A stretch of 64,000 nucleotides of DNA from Apoderus coryli (Eukaryota; Arthropoda; Insecta; Coleoptera; Attelabidae), in the NCBI GenBank assembly GCA_911728435.2, contig OU452205.1, positions 9,492,260 to 9,556,259 on the forward strand, written 5' to 3'. Position numbers and translations under genes: made by a program. Shown here piece after piece: positions 35,655-55,980 of the stretch. Within the stretch, counting starts at the first letter, position 1, and the number at the start of each line of letters is the position of its first letter. The notes under the pieces are model-generated. The model worked only from the letters and a program-made list of their open reading frames with translations, did not search any database and was not told the DNA's origin.

Positions 35655-36975
35655 TTCTTCTTGAAATTCCGCTCCTATCGGAGATTGGAAATCATCACCA
35701 CTACTCGGTTCTTATCAATCGCCCGCCTGAAGAGTTCTGCGGACATGCAACCAAACCACTCCCTCAAGTTGCGCAGCCAAGAGATTCTTCTTCTGCCAAT
35801 CGTTATCTTGCCTTTTAGAAAATGTCCTAGATATTCTAATTTTCTCTTTTTTATGGTGTTACTAACTTCTTTGATTTTATTCATTCGGCGTAGTACTTCC
35901 TCATTTGAAATCTTGTCAACTCATGGTATTCTCAGCATCCTCCTATAACACGACATTTCAAATGCTTCTATGTTCTTGATGTTTATCCAAGCCTCCATTC
36001 CATACAATAAAATAATGAATATATAGCAATTTAGCATTCTGTTTCTCAGTTCTAATGTTATATCTCGGCTGCAGAGTATTTTATTCATATTTATGAAATC
36101 GCTGCGAGCTACTTCAATTCGACACTTGATTTCTTTTGTGTTCTGCTGTTTCAGTTACCCATGTGCCGAGATATTTGTAGGAGGATCCCCATTCTAGGTT
36201 GTCGTTATTAATATTTATAGATGGTCTATTGTGATTTGTGCTTTGGTGCTCTTGCAGAAAATGCTTGTTAACTCATCCAGATGTTGTAGGTCTTCCAGAC
36301 TGTCGGCGAAGATATCTGTATCGTCTGCGTATCGCAAGTTGTTAATTCCTTCCCCGTTTATGACAATACCACCGGTTTCTTCTGACAGCACTTCTTCAAA
36401 GATGCCTTCACTATATACATTGAATAAGAGAGGCGCCAATACACATCCCTGTCTAACACCTCGACATATCTTAATCTCCTCACTCAGATCTTCTCCGACT
36501 TTGACTCGTGCGGTTTGGTGCCAATAGAGATTGGATATTATTCTTATATTTTTGCTATCGATGTTTTTTCTCTTTAGAATCTCTAGGAGTTTTGGGTTTT
36601 GCACTCTATCAAATGCCATATGAAAGTCGATAAAGCCGATGTACATATCATGATTCATATTTAGGCACCTTTGTCTCAGTACGTTTAGTCCGAAGAGCGC
36701 TTCTCTTGTTCCCACGCCTTTCCTGAAACTCATTTGAGTGTCACAGATGTCTTGTTCTAACTCCTTATAAATTCGGTTATGTATCATCTCTTTAAAAATC
36801 TTTTCAAGGTGTGACTGACTAGTGCAATGATTCTGTAGTCCGAACATCACATATGGCTTTATTTTTCTTTGGCATTGTCACCAATGTTGAGCTAGCCAAT
36901 CGCTAGGAATTCTGCCCTTCTCATAAATGTTGTTAAACAGGTTCTCAAATTTGTTAATCTGCTTTCACTGTTGCA
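35655..36975 (-). pseudogene. LINE (endonuclease-reverse transcriptase type), 3' half, broken
   Basis: From right to left: FENLFNNIYEKGRIPSDWL; after stops, the frame 36850-36215 with HNRIYKELEQDICDTQMSF, FIDFHMAFDRVQNPKLLEIL, CRGVRQGCVLAPLLFNVYSE and LRYADDTDIFADSLEDLQHL. These are the fingers-to-palm blocks, with a complete YADD catalytic motif. Further on come SCYRRMLRIP and a C-terminus with LEYLGHFLKG, SWLRNLREWFGCMSAELFRR and ending ISNLR. Stops separate the pieces. The 5' part, including the endonuclease, is gone. The motif set fits the RTE/BovB-like group of insect LINEs, but the clade is tentative. Confidence 0.85.
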
Positions 36976-38628: not shown

Positions 38629-40045
38629 ATTTTATTACTTCCGACTCTCTCTAAAATCTTAGAAAAAATTATGTATAGGCAGATACTTAATCACTTAAAT
38701 AAGTATAATCTACTTCCTGAGAGGCAGTCCGGATTCAGAAAAGTGTACAACGGCGATGCTTGATTTAGTTGATGATATTCTTCATGATATAGACTGGGGA
38801 AGATCGACAGCCCTTGTACTTCTTGATTTCTCGAAGGCATTCGATAGTATCAATCATGAAATACTCTTCGCCGTTCTTCATTATTCTGGATTCTCAAATA
38901 ACTCGATCAATTTGTTAAATTCATATTTCGATGGTAGATATCAATTCGTTGAGACTTCAGAGGGCAGATCGGATCTGGGAGAGTTACTATGTGGTGTGCC
39001 GCAGGAGTCAGTCTTGGGTCCGCTAGTGTTTTGTTTGTATACCGCTAATTTACCGGAGTGTTTGCAGAAATGTACTGGATATTATTATGCTGACGATATT
39101 CAAATACGGCTTTCCTTCGATCCATCCGATGTGCACAATGCAAACATTGTACTTAATAATGAACTGGGTTTGTTTCTTGACCGATCTGCTCAACATCAAC
39201 TGGAAGGGAATCCCTTCAAATTGAAATTTGATTTGATTTGGAAAGAGTCGGAACACTGTTGAAGAGTCTCTTAATATTAGGATAAATAATCAGTCCTTGA
39301 TTTCAGTGGGATCTGCGAGGAGTCTTGGAGTTGACATGGATGTGGATTTGAGATTTATTGGTCATGTTACTCAATGTTTGCAGAAAGCCTACACCGTTAT
39401 GAAAATGCTTTATCCTCACATACATGTGTTGCAACAGGGGTTAAAATTTAAATTAACTGACACATTGTCACATTTCAACTATGCTGACGTAGTTTATCAT
39501 CCATGTTTGATGCTTGCTGGTAGGGCTTGAATACAAAGAGTTCAAAAATCGTGTCTGAGGTTCACTTATGGTATTAGAAAATATGACCCCGTCAGCCATA
39601 AATTATTAGATTCCAATTGGCTTTATATGGATGATCAACGTAAGCTTCACTCAGCATGCTTATTTCATTCCATTCTGTTGCGGAGGTGCCCCCCATATTT
39701 ATATAATAAAATTAAATTTAGGTCCGACGTCCACACAATCAACTTAAGGTTTAGAGGACTCATATCACCTCCTCCACACCGGAATGTAATTTTTGGCGTT
39801 CTATTGTCTTTATAATCAAATTACGTCGGAGATAACAGGCTTGAAACTATCATCTTTCAGAAACTCATACCGGAAAACTCTATTTGATGCTTTACAGTAG
39901 TGTTTTTTTCTATCCATATCCACATCGTGCTTTTCCACCAGATTGCTGCAAATAAACTGATTTATTATTATTAGCTGATTACAGTTACCAAGAACCATAT
40001 GCTCTTTGTCACTTAAGCAATAAATTGTATTAAATTGAAATGATC
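38629..40045 (+). pseudogene. LINE reverse transcriptase and C-terminal region, frameshifted
   Basis: LLPTLSKILEKIMYRQIL and ERQSGFRK start the reverse transcriptase. After a frameshift at about 38745 the frame 38756-39262 gives ALVLLDFSKAFDSINHEIL, LCGVPQESVLGPLVFCLYTA and GYYYADDIQI (YADD intact). The usual GVPQGS reads GVPQES. A second frame change near 39240 leads to 39297-39530 (SARSLGVDMDVDLRFIGHV) and then, past a stop, to a C-terminal segment ending near 39815 (QKSCLRFTYGIRKYDPVSHK, LHSACLFHSIL). It is 5'-truncated. It belongs to the Jockey/R1-like group of insect LINEs, clade tentative. Few disruptions suggest moderate age. Confidence 0.85.
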
Positions 40046-48579: not shown

Positions 48580-49026
48580 TCCTATGCACAAGGGCTGTGA
48601 TAAGGAACAAGCTTCAAACGATCGTCCAATTGCACTTCTCTCCACTCTATCCAAGATAATTGAGAGATTGGTTAAAAAGAAACTTCTATCATTTCTGCAC
48701 AAATATAAAAACTAACCACCCACGAATTTGGAGTTTTAGCCAACAAATGCACAAATAAACAATATTCTCTGTCTTCCACAATGTATACTCCAACGTGAAC
48801 TATACTCCACTCTACTGCATCAATTTTCTGTGATTTATCCAAAGCATTCGACTGTGTGAGTCATAACATCCTAATTAACAAGATGCAGCACTACGGAATT
48901 CGGGGGATTCCATTGGAATGGTCATATCTCAGCAACAGAAGTCGGTGTTAGGTTTAACCCGACTACATCCTCTTGCGGGGTTCGGTACTGGGTCATATTT
49001 TGTTATTGCTGTTTATTTACGACAGT
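48580..49026 (+). pseudogene. LINE reverse transcriptase, left part, interrupted by the LTR element
   Basis: RPIALLSTLSKIIERLVKKK (about 48625-48690) and FCDLSKAFDCVSHNILINKM with QHYGIRGIPLEW (about 48830-48925) are the first reverse transcriptase blocks. A GSVLGH..LLLFIYD block leads to the insertion point at 49026. The frame resumes at 55022 with the FADD block. Several stops precede the insertion, so the LINE was already decayed. Confidence 0.85.
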
Positions 49027-49232
49027 AGTTATATGATGGTCCACTCCGTATAAATGCTGACCAAGCGAGATCAAATGACACCGCAGTAAACATTATATAT
49101 AGGAAGAAGACGCTATTTTTCAAGTTCAGTTATAATAATTTTATTTGTTAATGTAAACCAGAAATATTGTAATTTTGTATTTTGAAAATAAAGTTTTTTA
49201 AAAAGGGAAACTCCGGGCTAAGAAAGTTAATT
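49027..49232 (+). repeat. 5' LTR
   Basis: 206 bp, identical base for base to 54816-55021. TATATATA at 49094-49101 and an initiator TCAGTT at 49126-49131 give a core promoter. AATAAA at 49187-49192 is the polyadenylation signal. This implies U3 to about 49127, a short R and a very short U5. Confidence 0.97.
49094..49131 (+). promoter_or_regulatory. LTR core promoter: TATA box and arthropod initiator
   Basis: TATATATA is followed about 32 bp downstream by TCAGTT, the arthropod initiator consensus, the spacing expected for RNA polymerase II. A second TATAAA lies at 49049-49054, too close to the LTR edge to be preferred. Confidence 0.65.
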
Positions 49233-49241
49233 GGCGCAGTC
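49232..49241 (+). other. Primer binding site, tRNA-Ser type
   Basis: TGGCGCAGTC begins with the last base of the LTR and is complementary to the CCA end plus acceptor stem of insect tRNA-Ser. Drosophila errantiviruses such as 17.6 and 297 also use tRNA-Ser. The one-base overlap with the LTR is usual for that group. Confidence 0.8.
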
Positions 49242-49512
49242 AGTCGGATTTTCGGAAGTGTGCGAATCAATCGTATTGCTTTTTCGTGTCAACGGATTTA
49301 CCGAAAATACGAACCTTTGTTGTGACGTTGGTGCGAGGGTGTTTTATAGAAGGGACTTTCTGGACATCGAAAAATCCCAATCTATCGCAGAACTATAAAG
49401 TGCTCTTGAACAATCGATCATCGGTCGATAGAATCAATATTGTCTATCGTCGCAAGGACTAAGTGATTGAGAAGGACCATCATCGCCTAATCAAGACTTG
49501 GAACTTATAGTA

Positions 49513-49545
49513 ATGGCCAGAGCGAACCTGATTGTATTAGTGTAA
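49513..49545 (+). CDS. Upstream micro-ORF in the same frame as Gag, spanning a splice-donor-like site
   Basis: ATG at 49513 encodes MARANLIVLV and then TAA at 49543-49545, exactly in frame with Gag, whose ATG follows at 49558. GTAAGT, a consensus donor, sits at 49542-49547 across the stop. In errantiviruses Env is made from a spliced RNA whose donor lies near the Gag start, and the hydrophobic peptide would suit the start of a signal sequence. However, the best acceptors before Env (AG at 53202-53203, 53250-53251, 53283-53284) do not restore frame from this donor. Function is therefore open. Confidence 0.4.
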   Translation: MARANLIVLV

Positions 49546-49557
49546 GTGATAAAAGTA

Positions 49558-52500
49558 ATGTCAATCAATAATCTTATCGAAAATTTAGAAAATCTCTCAT
49601 TGCAAACTCCTTCAACTGACTCTGCTATTTACGACCAAAACTTAGAAGTCAATATTAAAGATAATTTGAATGAAATTATTGCTTTAGATAATAGTAATAG
49701 CAAAATGGCAAATACTTTTAAACCTGAATATCTAAACTGTGTTCCTACCTTCGACGGTAACGCTAATGATTTAAACAGATATTTATCTACTTGCCAAACT
49801 TTGATTGATTCTTTTTACGACATAGCTAACCCAAATAATTTTCACAATATATACCTATTAAATTCTTTAATTGGCAAACTTAGTGGTCATGCTAAATTAG
49901 TTGTAAACATCCAAAATGTTAACACCTGGAATGAACTTAAGGACACCTTAAGACGTAATTTTGCCGATCAAAGAGACGAAACTTGTTTAAATAGGGATCT
50001 GGTTATGATGAGACAAGCACCTAATGAAAAACCTAGTCAATTTTACGACAGGATTTTACACATACTAAATCTTTTATGTTCTTTTGTTGATGCGCACGAA
50101 TTATCAGTTGCTGGTAAAACATTAAAAAGAAATTTGTATAACGACCTTGCCTTGAAAACATTCCTATCGGGATTAAAAGAGCCTCTGGGAACTACAATCA
50201 GATGTATGCGTCCCGCTACTTTAATGCAAGCACTACAATTTGTTTCACAAGAGGATAATATTCATTATTTTCAAAACCAAAATAAACCTAATATATCCTT
50301 TAAAAATAATACTCAAAATTTTAGGCCCATGCAACAAAACCTATATACGCGACCCTTTCAAACTAACTTTTCACAAAGACCTTTTAATTATCAAACTTCA
50401 AACAATGCTTTTCGAACGAATTTTTCTCCACAGTCGGTTAATATTCGACCTCGTTTTAACGGAACAAGATTCCCCACAAACTCGCAAGTTTTTGGCAGAC
50501 CAAATAACAATGGAACTAATGTTTTTAAACCTCAAAATGTAAAACAACCTACACCCACACCCATGTCTGGCATAGAAACTTCTCAATTTAAACCCTTTAC
50601 AAATCAACCTAATAATAATTATAACCCACCTAAATTCACTTTTGAAGAACTATACAATGTAGAATCACATGACCTACCTCAACAAGACTATTATTACGAT
50701 GAGAGCCAGTACAATGAACCTAACCAATATCAAGATTTCTACTCTGCATATCCTAACCAATACGAACACTCCTGCGATGACCTACCTCAACAAGAACAAC
50801 CAGTTAATAATCAGCCTGTAGAAAATGCTTCAAATTTTCGACAGGACGGCCAGCAAAACCCCGAACGGTTAGAAACACCTACAATATCTTTTAATATGTC
50901 CAACCCTAACGAATTATCCTACATTATATTTCCAGAAAATAACCTTAAAATTTTTATAGATTCCGGTTCAAGTAATTCATTTTTGGACCCGATTCTTGCC
51001 AAAAAGTTATTTCCGAATAAAATAATAGACGATCCATTCGTTGTGTCTACAGTATATCAGAAATCAGCTCATAGACATAGTGTTCTTATGCCTGCTTCAA
51101 AATTATTTAATTTACCCGAAAATAAAGATTTAAAATTCTACCTATTTAAATTTCATAATATTTTTGATGGACTTTTAGGTTTAGATAATTTAAAATTATT
51201 GCAAGCAACTTTAGACTACAATAACAACTATTTAGTTACACCGTACACGCATATTAAGTTACAATTCCAGAAAACAAGATGTGAACTAAACAATATAACG
51301 ATCCCACCGCGTGTCGAACAAGTAATTACGATTAGGACTTCCATAAAAAATGGTGATATTATAATACCACATCAAAAATTTCATAACTGTGAAATCCCAG
51401 AATCACTATCAACTGCAAAAAAAGGCTTTGCACTCACAACTATTTTAAACAATACCTGTGAATCCATTACGTTAGACCTATCAGAACCCATAGGCGTAGA
51501 ACAATTCAATTCTGAGGTAATGTCGGAAATAAATTTAAACAATATTGACGAATCCCCAAAATTTTCAAATAAACTTGACCTTTCCAAATTTCGTACAGAC
51601 CATCTAAATGAAGAAGAAAAAATAAAAAATTTAAATTTAATTAGAAATTATTCAGACATTTTTTATAATGAAAATGATCAACTGACGTTTACAAGTAAAA
51701 TCAAACATCGCATAAAACTAGATGAATATTTCCCTGAAATAAAGTACAAAAAAGGTAGATTAAATACTAATGCTGACGCGTTGTCACGCATCGAAATTCA
51801 CACTAAAGAAACGCACGAAAAATTTTCCCTAAAAGATTATATCGAAGACTTTAATAAACAACTAGAAAACGAAACAGCTGACCACAACACTGACCAAATT
51901 TCAACTATTGCCCAAGTGGACGACACTGACAACACTCGATACAACGACATAGAACTCCCAGTACCTAATGATGATGCAGCGAACAACGATAACATGACTA
52001 TACATACAAACGTAAACGAAGACCCCATAGTCGACATTCCAATACATGATATTCCTGTAAACTACGGTGCGAATCAAATAATTATACAACAAGTACTACA
52101 TTCCCCTGCAAAACCAAAATTGACAATCTTATTTGAAAAGAAACGCCGCTATATCATCCAAATTTCCAAAAGTAATTTTGATGTCGATATTTTAAATACA
52201 TTTAAAGAAATTATCGTGCCTGATAAGCAATATTACCTTTATTTTGAAAAATCAGATATTTACGAACCATTTTGCGAAGTTATAAGAAAAACATTCAAAT
52301 GGCCTTCACTAAAGTTAAGACGTTGTTTAAAGAAATTAATAGACGTTACCGATATAACTGAAATTTCTGACATCATAAAAATGTATCATGAATCAAAAAA
52401 TAATCATAGAGACATCGACGAAACCCTCGAAAGAATTAAACAAAAATATTATTGGCCAAACCAAAAAGACTCTGTACAAACCTATATAAACAATTGTGAA

Positions 52501-54795
52501 ATTTGTCAAAGAAGTAAATACGAACGTCACCCTATAAATATGCAAATGAACGTCACACCTACTGCTTCCCGTCTTTTTCAAATAATTCATATAGACGTAT
52601 ACACTTTAGAAAAAACCAAATTCCTTACAATAATCGACAGCTTTTCAAAATATGCGCAAGCATATGGCCTTCAGTCACTTGCAGCTTCAGAAATTGTTGA
52701 CAAACTATTAATTTTCTTTTCTCATCATAGTGTCCCAGAACAAATTATATTAGATAATGGAACTGAATTCAAAAATACGGTTGTAACTGAAATGCTAAAC
52801 CTCCATAAAATTAAAATTCATTTTTGCTCTCCGTATCACCCACAATCTAACGGGCAAGTTGAAAGACTCCATTCCACTTTAAGCGAACACATTCGCCTCC
52901 TTAATAATCAAGAGTTTTCAAAATCTCCAATAAGTCAAAAAATGGTTTACGCCATTTTAGCATATAATAACTCAATACATTCTGTTACGAAATTTAAACC
53001 TATAGACGTTATTAACGGCCATATTTCTGATAATGATCCATTCGATATAAAATTAGACCAAATGTTACTAACTGACTATATTAATAATCATAAAGAAAAG
53101 GCTCGTCTTTTATACTCTAATATAAATGAAAAACTAATTGGAAATAAAGAGAAGGTTATTTCTAAAATTAACGAAAACCGAGATAAACCCGATATTTTCA
53201 CAGAAAACCAAAAAGTCTACCCTAAGAAACACATAAGACAAAAACTTACAGACAAATTCCTAAAACCCACCAAAATCCTCTCAGTAAATGAAAACCGTAA
53301 AACCAATTCTTTAAATAAACATAATGAATATTTTAACGAAACATCTAACTATATAAAAATTCTTAATTTAATTCAAGAAAGAGTTGAAACCAAAATCAAA
53401 AATTTGATACCTCACCCCCAAAGGACCAAAAGAGGACTTATTAATGCAGCAGGCTCAGTTTTCAAACTCATAACTGGTAACCTCGATGGGTCGGATGGCG
53501 AACACTACGAAAAACTCATCAATAATTTAGAAACCAATCAAAATAACTTGGCAACAATTATCAAAAACCAGAATTCAATTTCAACAAGCATAATCCAGAA
53601 TTTCAACAATACTGTTCAACAAATTAATCAAAATGAAAAGCTAATAGAAAAAAGAATTAATCAAATTGGGCTAATTGTGCAAAGAACTACAATTCCCGAA
53701 AACTATAATTTTATTAAAGACATTATCAATCAAATAATCAGTTTCTATGAAATAATTGACTCTATGCTCCAAGACTTAGAAAATTCAATAACTTTTGCTA
53801 GACTCAAAACTATGCACACTAGCATAATTAAAACAAATAACCTTTTAACCGAACTAAAGAAGTTGGAACACATTGTAGGTCCTAATTCATTGCCTTTACC
53901 TATTAACTTAGAAAACATATTTTTGTTCGAAAAACTCATTGAAATAGATTGCTTTATCTATAAAAATAAAATCACCTTTTTATTACACATTCCTGTAACA
54001 TATCCAAATAAATTCGACTATTACCATTTATATTCTCTACCAGTCAAACATCAGAGTCTGTTTAAGGTAGTCATTCCGCGTAATACATATCTAGTAAAAA
54101 GTCAGTTACACTATTCACATTTTGGAACGCCTTGTACAATCGTACGTCCACAAACATTCCTCTGCTACAAACCAATGCTGAAAGAAATCGAAGAAAACAG
54201 CCCTTGTGAAGTACAACTACTAGGATCGACCAAAAACACCCCCACCTGTCAACAAACAGATATCACAGCAACAAAACCAATCATAAATCAACTAGACCAA
54301 TCAGATAAATGGATTTTAGTACTACCAAAGGAAACTATCGTACAATTAAAATGCCCTTTTCAAGAAGAAAACCAAAGGTTACTAGGAAGTTACTTAACGA
54401 CAATACCAACTGGGTGCCAAATAAAGACCGAAGATAAAATAATAATCAATAACCAAAAGGAAACCAATTCCAGTCAACAGCCAATCATTTTCCCAGATTT
54501 TAACGAAACCAAAGAGTACCTTCCACTCCTTAATTTAAGTATCCATCTGCAAGAGATAAATTTAGACAGTCTACACGAGTTACAAAATAAAATCATGAAA
54601 AATCAGCCATATACAATTTTTGACAGCATTTCAAAATTTCCGAGTCTATGGACAATTTTGATCTATATGTTAGTGTTTGGAATATGCTCATATATGGTAT
54701 ATAAGTGCATTATAGGACGAAAACTCAATGGAAAGAAGACCAACTTGGAAACTCAGACATACCAACATATCCAACTACCCCTAAACCAGGCGTAG
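49558..54795 (+). CDS. Gag-protease-integrase-Env single polyprotein of errantivirus-type element
   Basis: 1,745 codons from ATG 49558 (the in-frame GTG at 49546 is not needed). Residues 1 to about 420 are Gag: a capsid-like helical part, then an Asn/Gln/Phe/Pro-rich tail without zinc knuckles. Protease carries D-S-G at 468-470. At about residues 718-727 the frame passes from the start of reverse transcriptase (KIKHRIK) straight to the end of RNase H (KGRLNTNADALSR), so the whole polymerase is gone. Integrase is complete: zinc finger H944, H950, C980, C983 and catalytic D1013, D1066, E1102 (35 residues between the last two). Env follows in frame: furin-type RTKR at 1289-1292, a GLINAAGS-type fusion peptide, an Asn/Gln-rich heptad region and a transmembrane helix at about 1697-1719 with a short tail. 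No signal peptide precedes Env in this frame. Whether Env is ever made is unknown. Confidence 0.95.
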   Translation: MSINNLIENLENLSLQTPSTDSAIYDQNLEVNIKDNLNEIIALDNSNSKMANTFKPEYLNCVPTFDGNANDLNRYLSTCQTLIDSFYDIANPNNFHNIYLLNSLIGKLSGHAKLVVNIQNVNTWNELKDTLRRNFADQRDETCLNRDLVMMRQAPNEKPSQFYDRILHILNLLCSFVDAHELSVAGKTLKRNLYNDLALKTFLSGLKEPLGTTIRCMRPATLMQALQFVSQEDNIHYFQNQNKPNISFKNNTQNFRPMQQNLYTRPFQTNFSQRPFNYQTSNNAFRTNFSPQSVNIRPRFNGTRFPTNSQVFGRPNNNGTNVFKPQNVKQPTPTPMSGIETSQFKPFTNQPNNNYNPPKFTFEELYNVESHDLPQQDYYYDESQYNEPNQYQDFYSAYPNQYEHSCDDLPQQEQPVNNQPVENASNFRQDGQQNPERLETPTISFNMSNPNELSYIIFPENNLKIFIDSGSSNSFLDPILAKKLFPNKIIDDPFVVSTVYQKSAHRHSVLMPASKLFNLPENKDLKFYLFKFHNIFDGLLGLDNLKLLQATLDYNNNYLVTPYTHIKLQFQKTRCELNNITIPPRVEQVITIRTSIKNGDIIIPHQKFHNCEIPESLSTAKKGFALTTILNNTCESITLDLSEPIGVEQFNSEVMSEINLNNIDESPKFSNKLDLSKFRTDHLNEEEKIKNLNLIRNYSDIFYNENDQLTFTSKIKHRIKLDEYFPEIKYKKGRLNTNADALSRIEIHTKETHEKFSLKDYIEDFNKQLENETADHNTDQISTIAQVDDTDNTRYNDIELPVPNDDAANNDNMTIHTNVNEDPIVDIPIHDIPVNYGANQIIIQQVLHSPAKPKLTILFEKKRRYIIQISKSNFDVDILNTFKEIIVPDKQYYLYFEKSDIYEPFCEVIRKTFKWPSLKLRRCLKKLIDVTDITEISDIIKMYHESKNNHRDIDETLERIKQKYYWPNQKDSVQTYINNCEICQRSKYERHPINMQMNVTPTASRLFQIIHIDVYTLEKTKFLTIIDSFSKYAQAYGLQSLAASEIVDKLLIFFSHHSVPEQIILDNGTEFKNTVVTEMLNLHKIKIHFCSPYHPQSNGQVERLHSTLSEHIRLLNNQEFSKSPISQKMVYAILAYNNSIHSVTKFKPIDVINGHISDNDPFDIKLDQMLLTDYINNHKEKARLLYSNINEKLIGNKEKVISKINENRDKPDIFTENQKVYPKKHIRQKLTDKFLKPTKILSVNENRKTNSLNKHNEYFNETSNYIKILNLIQERVETKIKNLIPHPQRTKRGLINAAGSVFKLITGNLDGSDGEHYEKLINNLETNQNNLATIIKNQNSISTSIIQNFNNTVQQINQNEKLIEKRINQIGLIVQRTTIPENYNFIKDIINQIISFYEIIDSMLQDLENSITFARLKTMHTSIIKTNNLLTELKKLEHIVGPNSLPLPINLENIFLFEKLIEIDCFIYKNKITFLLHIPVTYPNKFDYYHLYSLPVKHQSLFKVVIPRNTYLVKSQLHYSHFGTPCTIVRPQTFLCYKPMLKEIEENSPCEVQLLGSTKNTPTCQQTDITATKPIINQLDQSDKWILVLPKETIVQLKCPFQEENQRLLGSYLTTIPTGCQIKTEDKIIINNQKETNSSQQPIIFPDFNETKEYLPLLNLSIHLQEINLDSLHELQNKIMKNQPYTIFDSISKFPSLWTILIYMLVFGICSYMVYKCIIGRKLNGKKTNLETQTYQHIQLPLNQA

Positions 54796-54803
54796 TTTTA
54801 TTC

Positions 54804-54815
54804 TAAGGAGGGAGG
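54804..54815 (+). other. Polypurine tract
   Basis: TAAGGAGGGAGG directly abuts the 3' LTR and follows the ORF stop by a few bases, as expected for the plus-strand primer. Confidence 0.85.
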
Positions 54816-55021
54816 AGTTATATGATGGTCCACTCCGTATAAATGCTGACCAAGCGAGATCAAATGACACCGCAGTAAACATTATATATAGGAAGAAGAC
54901 GCTATTTTTCAAGTTCAGTTATAATAATTTTATTTGTTAATGTAAACCAGAAATATTGTAATTTTGTATTTTGAAAATAAAGTTTTTTAAAAAGGGAAAC
55001 TCCGGGCTAAGAAAGTTAATT
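54816..55021 (+). repeat. 3' LTR
   Basis: Identical to the 5' LTR over 206 bp. AATAAA at 54976-54981 would end the genomic RNA. Followed by the second CAGT target duplicate. Confidence 0.97.
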
Positions 55022-55110
55022 CAGTATATGCCTGGATATCAGCGGTAAAGAGTGTCTGTTTGCTGATGACACTAGTCTCACTTGGTGCAATACAGTACTG
55101 TGGTTAGAAA
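55022..55110 (+). pseudogene. LINE reverse transcriptase, right part with FADD motif
   Basis: When one CAGT copy is removed, the frame from 49026 continues here into DISGKECLFADDTSLTW, the catalytic FADD block of a Jockey/CR1-like LINE. This fixes the pre-insertion sequence and the 4-bp duplication. The LINE breaks off near 55106. Confidence 0.85.
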
Positions 55111-55833
55111 CCGAAAACTATAATTATTTTTTTAACACAAAATGGCGGCGTCATAGGTCACAGTTTGAAATTATTTAGTTCAAAGTGTCAACGTGGACTC
55201 GGAATGCTGTACTTCTTAGGCTGTGGTATAAGCGCTTCGTAAATAGTGGAAATTTGAATCACATAGCCTGCCGATCACCACTGATGAGGTGTCTATCAAT
55301 GAAACGGCCTGTCTGGTAATAGCATTGTAGTGTGAAGTAAATTTTTAACATAACACGTCTTGTTAAAGCTAAATAAAATTGTCATTTTAGAAAACTTGAA
55401 TTCCAGTCGTGTTATTAGCCAGAGGAGTAGGTAGTTGTTTTGCCTTTTTTTTTTTATTTCGGGGTACAGGTTGGTCTCACTTCAAAAAAATTTAAATTCA
55501 CTTCACATTTTTACCAACAGTAAATGTAAACAAAAATATCATTACCTTTGCATCGTGGTTTGTATATGTATATTAGTGCCACTTGAGAAATTACTAGTAC
55601 GACCCCATTTCAATCCTAGAGTTGCAATACAACCCAGGTAATTCGTGTGTTAATATTACTTATGTCAATGACATTCTAGAAATAACATGATGTATTATAG
55701 CCTGTTGGGAAAAACCTAAACGTAAACAAAGCAACGTGTAGGGCAAACATGTTTTTTTTAATACAAAATAATAATTAATTTCACACTTTCACTATAAATA
55801 TATCTCCTAAAACATATACTCTATTTGTTTCAG
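55111..55833 (+). other. Intron end with possible hammerhead remnant
   Basis: At 55280-55307 ACTGATGAGGTG is followed by ATGAAACGGCC, the two hammerhead boxes at normal distance but with a weak stem II. The remainder up to 55833 is intron, ending in the neuroligin acceptor TTTGTTTCAG. Confidence 0.4.
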
Positions 55834-55980
55834 TGTCTCCAGAGAGTCGCCACCCTGTGATAGTTTACATTCATGGGGAATCATTTCAATGGAACTCAGG
55901 AAATCCATATGATGGAAGTGTTTTAGCTTCCTACGCAGATGTCGTTGTAATAACGTTGAACTATAGACTAGGAATATTAG
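55834..55980 (+). CDS. Nlg: Neuroligin, internal exon (cholinesterase-like domain)
   Basis: 147 bp between acceptor TTTGTTTCAG and donor G|GTAAGG. It starts with two bases of a split codon and ends with one. It encodes [32 protein letters not shown] and [15 protein letters not shown]. This is the beta-strand and oxyanion region of the neuroligin extracellular alpha/beta-hydrolase fold ([13 protein letters not shown]). Neuroligins are postsynaptic adhesion proteins that bind neurexins. The preceding exon must end in phase 1 and was not found in the 55.8 kb upstream. Confidence 0.93.

Follow-up and report, generated by a model that had tools for sequence, protein, structure and literature searches.

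A 64,000-nt stretch of the genome of the beetle Apoderus coryli (Attelabidae; contig OU452205.1 of assembly GCA_911728435.2, forward-strand positions 9,492,260 to 9,556,259; the whole stretch is called the window below) contains a long terminal repeat (LTR) retroelement, at positions 49027 to 55021, in which Gag, protease (PR), integrase (IN) and a fragment of the envelope protein (Env) are encoded in a single open reading frame (ORF), while reverse transcriptase (RT) and RNase H are missing. Elsewhere in the same genome, RT-less copies of this family have inserted repeatedly and recently, their large deletions preserve the reading frame, and their coding parts are joined far more often than those of RT-bearing copies. 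We consider it likely that the RT-less copies are trans-mobilised parasites similar to the mouse IAP-1Δ1 elements, selected for one uninterrupted frame, and that the element in the window is a young, non-autonomous, errantivirus-like insertion.

The original prediction, made from the letters of the window alone, described a single open frame that encodes Gag, PR, IN and Env, with the polymerase absent, and this was confirmed. The ORF lies on the forward strand at 49546-54795 and has 1749 codons counted from a GTG; with the ATG at 49558 as its start, the Gag-PR-IN-Env fragment frame occupies 49558..54795, stop codon included, and contains no internal stop. A Pfam search, run on eight overlapping pieces of the ORF, matched the families Retrotrans_gag, Integrase_H2C2, rve and Baculo_F, as well as Asp_protease_2 (weakly, below its cut-off), and matched no RT or RNase H family; 1203 bp are missing from this region. 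When the window copy was read against its relatives, the D-S-G residues of PR and the H2C2 and D-D-E residues of IN were all present, as had been expected, but IN was found to lack its last ~25 residues. Env is part of the fusion in so far as a Baculo_F fragment is in frame; its N-terminal part is lost. The suggestion that the element might supply Env thus appears unlikely, given this loss in the window and the deletion of the IN-Env border in two other classes of RT-less copies (B and C, see below).

Polymerase-less copies in the A. coryli genome

The 428-Mb, 129-contig assembly was searched for other members of the family. With a 901-bp RT piece as the query (40 of 162 candidates scored), 25 places matched at 98-100% identity. 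The remaining 15 of the 40 matched at 70-71%; these places, at least 15 in number, represent related families in the same genome. Overall, 43 copies of the family were found: the RT segment is present in 25 and, counting the window copy, absent from 18, the latter number being a lower bound (40 of 77 candidates scored in the copy search). Forty places other than the window were read in pieces: 17 RT-less copies and 23 of the 25 RT-bearing ones (C18:9503k and C16:12795k were left out). The PR-RT-IN frame is open in 17 of these 23 RT-bearing copies. Thus, RT-less and RT-bearing copies of near-identical sequence coexist in one genome.

The exact RT junction of the window was spanned by the window only, which made up one of 40 rows (40 of 80 candidates scored). 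The 17 other RT-less copies carry four other junctions, which define classes A (eight copies), B (four), C (four), and D (one). Junction searches confirmed eight insertions for class A and four for class B; the class C count comes from piece-wise reading, and two of its four members were also recovered in the class A junction search.

An LTR pair and a matching 4-bp target duplication were present in all 18 RT-less copies, and in the 17 other than the window the bases neighbouring the element differ. The two LTRs are identical in 15 of the 18, with no differences within pairs in any copy of classes A, C, and D, and with 2, 0, 1, and 2 differences in the four copies of class B. Since LTR pairs are mostly identical and each copy has a 4-bp duplication of its own, the sequences point to repeated, recent transposition by polymerase-less forms, as separate insertions: classes A, B, and C account for 16 insertions with target duplications, and the window form for one. 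The differing target duplications argue against segmental duplication as the origin of the shared junctions. Two RT-bearing copies were read for the same features; in L014 the LTRs are identical and a duplication is present, while in L013 the 3′ LTR match is shortened and a duplication is absent. Fourteen of the 18 RT-less target duplications follow a pyrimidine-purine-pyrimidine-purine pattern (such as CATG, CACG, CGTG, or CATA), though the CAGT of the window does not; the pattern suggests a target preference.

The notion of a successful non-autonomous lineage, also part of the original prediction, is supported by an RT-less population living side by side with near-identical RT-bearing copies, and the same-genome search did return insertions in shared classes; the deletion of the window itself, however, is a singleton among the copies seen. 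The opposite outcome, with a polymerase in every other copy, was not observed, as 17 other copies are RT-less besides the 25 that are RT-bearing.

Deletions and joined reading frames

Deletion sizes were measured against the RT-bearing copies L013 and L014 across window positions 50000 to 54816, a span that begins ~440 bp into gag. The RT deletion measures 1203 bp in the window, 1464 bp in class A, 1398 bp in B, 1506 bp in C, and 1713 bp in D, and the sequence shared by its two ends is 7, 9, 5, 5, and 3 bp, respectively. In the window, the junction coincides with a 7-bp direct repeat (51709..51715, forward strand) that is present at both ends of the segment in RT-bearing copies, and the pre-RT tail is joined directly to the RNase H tail. 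The deletions of A, of D, and of the pair B/C overlap one another, yet none of the three contains another, which points to at least three independent RT-loss events; B lies inside C, and the window deletion inside all the others, so for these nested deletions stepwise enlargement is possible.

A second set of deletions affects the IN-Env border: 288 bp are lost in the window, 408 bp in class B and in L047, and 156 bp in class C and in the RT-bearing L010. L044 and L045 have an additional 180-bp loss in Env. The 288-bp deletion, with its junction at 53301..53310 (forward strand; repeat of 4 to 10 bp, depending on scoring), takes out the IN stop plus the N-terminal part of Env. L047 combines the RT junction of class C with a 3′ part of the B type, a mosaic that would imply template switching between co-packaged RNAs. 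An origin of the deletions from spliced RNA was considered but is not favoured, as the ends share 3-9 bp (splice signals unscored).

Every one of the nine kinds of deletion longer than 100 bp observed in RT-less copies has a length divisible by three (chance 5e-5). Of the large deletions in RT-bearing copies, those of 305 bp in L010 and 698 bp in L036 are out of frame and were each seen once; the one in L037, described below, leaves the frame open. L010 was counted as RT-bearing, since its 305-bp loss precedes the RT and its RT segment is listed in the census; its Pol frame is broken.

Leaving L010 aside, a stop separates IN from Env within a shared frame in 19 of 22 RT-bearing copies, and Env is separate from IN in 21 of the 23 RT-bearing copies read. 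The end of IN is joined to Env in 16 of 18 RT-less copies and in two of 23 RT-bearing copies (L037 and L010; Fisher 4e-7). At first scoring, the RT-bearing count was 0 of 21; L037, which has lost the motif used for scoring, and L010 were added separately. L037 (C1, about 36.81 Mb) lacks both the IN end and the beginning of Env, and its Pol frame continues into Env. The join was reached by different routes: seven of the eight class A copies lost the stop with no indel involved, and in B, C, and the window the in-frame deletions joined the two parts. A frame common to Gag and Pol is present in 11 of the 18 RT-less copies versus two of 22 RT-bearing ones (L022 and L010; Fisher 7e-4; L036 is without the Gag-Pol region and was omitted from this count), and at least two different length changes underlie the joins in RT-less copies. 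The possibility that Gag-Pol fusion was unique to the window copy was dropped, because other RT-less copies show the same state. Everything is in one frame in ten of 18 RT-less copies (the window, L016, L021, L026, L033, L039, L040, L044, L045, and L047) and in none of the 23 RT-bearing copies (Fisher 4e-5; all Fisher tests on fusions treat the copies as independent, though they are related). The frameshifted Gag-Pol layout, with which the original prediction had contrasted the window, agrees with most of the RT-bearing copies and with the related proteins described below. Members of class A may represent successive stages: L017 shows RT loss only, in L018, L019, and L024 the IN-Env border is joined as well, and in L016, L021, and L026 all parts are joined. 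In a further member, L031, the frame is broken.

Changes present in two or more RT-less copies and in no RT-bearing copy comprise four nonsynonymous (N) and seven synonymous (S) ones. Private changes amount to 27 N and 6 S in RT-less copies, and to 46 N and 23 S, plus two stops, in RT-bearing copies; the ratio expected from the integrase piece is ~3.2 N to 1 S. In RT-less copies, shared and private changes differ in N/S composition (Fisher p 0.008; the counts are low, and unsampled parents may be the source of some shared changes). Because shared changes are poorer in amino-acid changes than private ones, the protein seems to matter in RT-less lineages. Seventeen of the 18 RT-less copies, all but L031, retain the catalytic residues of PR and IN.

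Proposed selection for a single frame and alternative explanations

In the scenario that we favour, the parent would be an RT-bearing, errantivirus-like insect element (Metaviridae, env-bearing gypsy-type). The microhomology at the deletion ends suggests that RT/RNase H and the IN-Env border were lost when reverse transcription jumped from one short direct repeat to another. The RT-less RNAs would then be copied and integrated by RT supplied in trans from intact copies, as suggested by the LTRs, the target duplications, and the coexistence with RT-bearing copies. Once RT is lost, selection may favour one open frame from the start of Gag to near the 3′ LTR. The main reason that we propose is a benefit in cis, by which the RNA would be helped by the fused Gag-PR-IN product that it encodes, an effect reported for mouse IAP 1Δ1. 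In addition, RNA without early stops may be spared from decay. RT-bearing copies could hardly follow, as they would need a certain Gag:Pol ratio and a separate Env. A more far-reaching version of this scenario is put forward tentatively, and we rate it somewhat short of probable. In it, loss of the polymerase would open a path hardly accessible to autonomous elements: with RT coming from elsewhere, selection would eliminate the frameshift and the internal stops, in several independent ways, until the entire parasite genome is translated as one cistron and wins over its helper in the competition for packaging.

The cis-acting role of the protein is the point at issue in one alternative, by which a frame open to the 3′ end only prevents the decay caused by an early stop and a long 3′ untranslated part, and the protein itself is idle. 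Such protection would explain why Env stays open towards its end despite the N-terminal loss in the window and the deleted IN-Env border in B and C, and why even the extra Env deletion of L044 and L045 is in frame. An idle protein is harder to reconcile with the predominance of synonymous changes among those shared by RT-less copies (4 N against 7 S) and with the retention of PR and IN catalytic residues in all RT-less copies but L031. We regard protection as the sole explanation as rather unlikely, though better placed than the alternatives that follow.

A number of observations weigh against the favoured scenario. L017 (class A) and L048 (class D) transposed without IN-Env fusion, the Gag-Pol frameshift layout persists in seven of 18 RT-less copies, and RT-bearing fusions exist (L037 for IN-Env, L022 for Gag-Pol, and L010 for both). 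The RT-less copies L031, L027, and L042 contain smaller private breaks. The window was chosen for its long ORF; when its two deletions are set aside, seven of seven are still in frame. The copies are related and recombining, as seen in L047, and the Fisher values overstate their independence. The first three of these observations, together with the fact that the copies are young and related and the independent events few, fit the explanation that the RT-less copies are passive hitch-hikers, ordinary deletion products in which LTRs, primer site, and packaging signal survive and which happen to be copied; the in-frame deletions and fused frames would then be accidental or due to common ancestry, with no gain through the protein. 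The in-frame bias of the large deletions speaks against it, as do the several separate routes to the same fusions, the lower share of amino-acid changes among shared than among private differences, and the out-of-frame deletions of L010 and L036, neither of which was seen in a second copy. On balance, purely passive copying seems improbable to us. That the window locus is a unique deletion or an assembly artefact is very improbable: its exact junction does occur in no other copy seen, but the locus lies within a 20.5-Mb contig, the CAGT duplication, the identical LTRs, and the frame restored across the empty site mark an insertion, and four other RT-less junctions exist, three of them in several insertions.

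The window element, its surroundings and its relatives

In the window element, the 5′ LTR (49027..49232, 206 bp) and the 3′ LTR (54816..55021) are identical by LTR-pair comparison, both on the forward strand, and are flanked by the two copies of the CAGT duplication (49023..49026 and 55022..55025), which were read beside the LTRs. Directly 3′ of the 5′ LTR lies a stretch resembling a primer-binding site (49233..49250, forward strand, read by eye, beginning GGCGCAGTC), whose tRNA match we take to be putative; a polypurine tract, also read by eye, occupies 54805..54815 (forward strand). When the flanks are joined with one CAGT kept, a frame is open across the empty site (48960-49026 plus 55022-55080; GSVLG ... 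FADDTSL), which, judged by eye from its motifs, we take to be that of a LINE-type RT. Since the joined flanks can be read in this way, the element seems to be a true insertion nested in an older LINE remnant.

Within the ORF, on the forward strand, Gag extends over 49558..50850 (end approximate; Pfam Retrotrans_gag and Gag relatives), and the frame passes from it straight into PR (50890..51290, limits approximate; from Pfam and catalytic residues, with DSG at 50959-50967). An AAATTTT heptamer at 50832..50838 has the phase required for −1 slippage and is a candidate slippery site. IN (H2C2 and rve; Pfam and relatives) covers 52360..53265, and the Env (Baculo_F) fragment 53314..54792, with RTKR at 53422-53433 and a hydrophobic stretch at about 54646-54714. 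Near-invariant residues are altered in 2 of 86 positions in Gag, 0 of 34 in PR, 2 of 121 in IN, and 4 of 69 in the Env tail, all within the range of the relatives; the Env value is above the middle half of the relatives, and 22 of 29 relatives are as good or better. Insect Env is described as being made from spliced RNA and as having an N-terminal signal peptide (PMC12992720). As the N-terminal part is gone, the window Env is probably not a working envelope, and the element is not expected to supply one.

About 0.8 kb downstream of the element, an exon-like stretch (55797-55979, forward strand) matches neuroligin (best PDB match neuroligin-4, E 2e-13); the element probably sits in an intron of, or beside, a neuroligin-like gene in the same orientation. 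Two more ORF fragments with RT matches (RVT_1) are present in the window, at 36215-36850 (reverse strand) and 38756-39262 (forward strand), and are perhaps LINE remnants. A scan of the window with Rfam gave nothing at gathering score.

Protein relatives, of which the named ones are mainly from beetles, have separate gag, pol (~1225 aa, with RT) and env proteins. Among the pol matches listed (the best 120 of 137, from 7994 scored candidates), the closest is P0003, at 73%, and the window IN is its sister in a 103-row IN tree (SH-aLRT 91), grouping with RT-bearing elements. Of 120 Gag relatives (the best 120 of 128), 106 carry within their final 30 residues the asparagine-phenylalanine pair that AAATTTT encodes in the window, and in most of the 60 Gag tails printed it stands ~10 residues before the end, which is the position of the heptamer; the pattern fits a −1 frameshift. 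Two further RT-less proteins were found among the relatives, P0026 and P0088, with PR-like and IN parts in one ORF and with other junctions. They are placed elsewhere than the window in the IN tree; the tree needs three changes, and its starred branches force at least two. Scans of viral contigs gave a single weak relative (L001) and, for P0088, nothing. The Diabrotica gene model P0113 contains RT and RNase H followed by Baculo_F, with no integrase match, a mirror-image fusion that is possibly a gene-model artefact.

Errantivirus-like insect endogenous retroviruses include elements of the gypsy, ZAM, 17.6, and 297 type. The window element resembles them in its LTRs, Gag, PR, IN, and Baculo_F-type Env, and differs in the absence of RT/RNase H, in its single frame, and in an Env that has lost its N-terminal part and is not a gene of its own. 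P0026 and P0088 share with it the missing RT/RNase H and the joining of PR-like and IN parts, and differ in junctions and sources. Non-autonomous LTR elements of the plant LARD, TR-GAG, and BARE-2 type depend on the enzymes of a relative and have lost most or other coding parts; unlike them, the RT-less copies described here keep Gag, PR, and IN coding, in one frame.

A trans-mobilised deletion derivative is a known kind of element. In mouse IAP 1Δ1, an internal deletion creates one gag-pol fusion ORF, gag and pol are needed in trans, and a cis action has been reported for the fusion protein; these elements cause most new IAP insertion mutations (PMC6466679, PMC7411935). Many of the RT-less A. 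coryli copies are likewise deletion derivatives with a fused ORF. IAP 1Δ1 belongs to the mammalian class II endogenous retroviruses and has one 1.9-kb deletion in gag and pol, whereas here, in insect Metaviridae, several deletions take out RT/RNase H and leave Gag, PR, and IN in place, and Env is often joined too. Among the top-ranked matches of our literature search, we saw no insect RT-less or single-ORF element, and no precedent for repeated deletions that are specific to RT and spare Gag, PR, and IN, combined with convergent merging into one frame within one family.

The A. coryli genome thus holds, within one very young family, RT-bearing and polymerase-less copies seemingly at successive stages, from loss of RT only, through RT loss with IN-Env fusion, to everything in one frame. 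With mouse IAP 1Δ1 as the closest precedent seen, the origin and success of retrotransposon parasites become directly testable in an insect.
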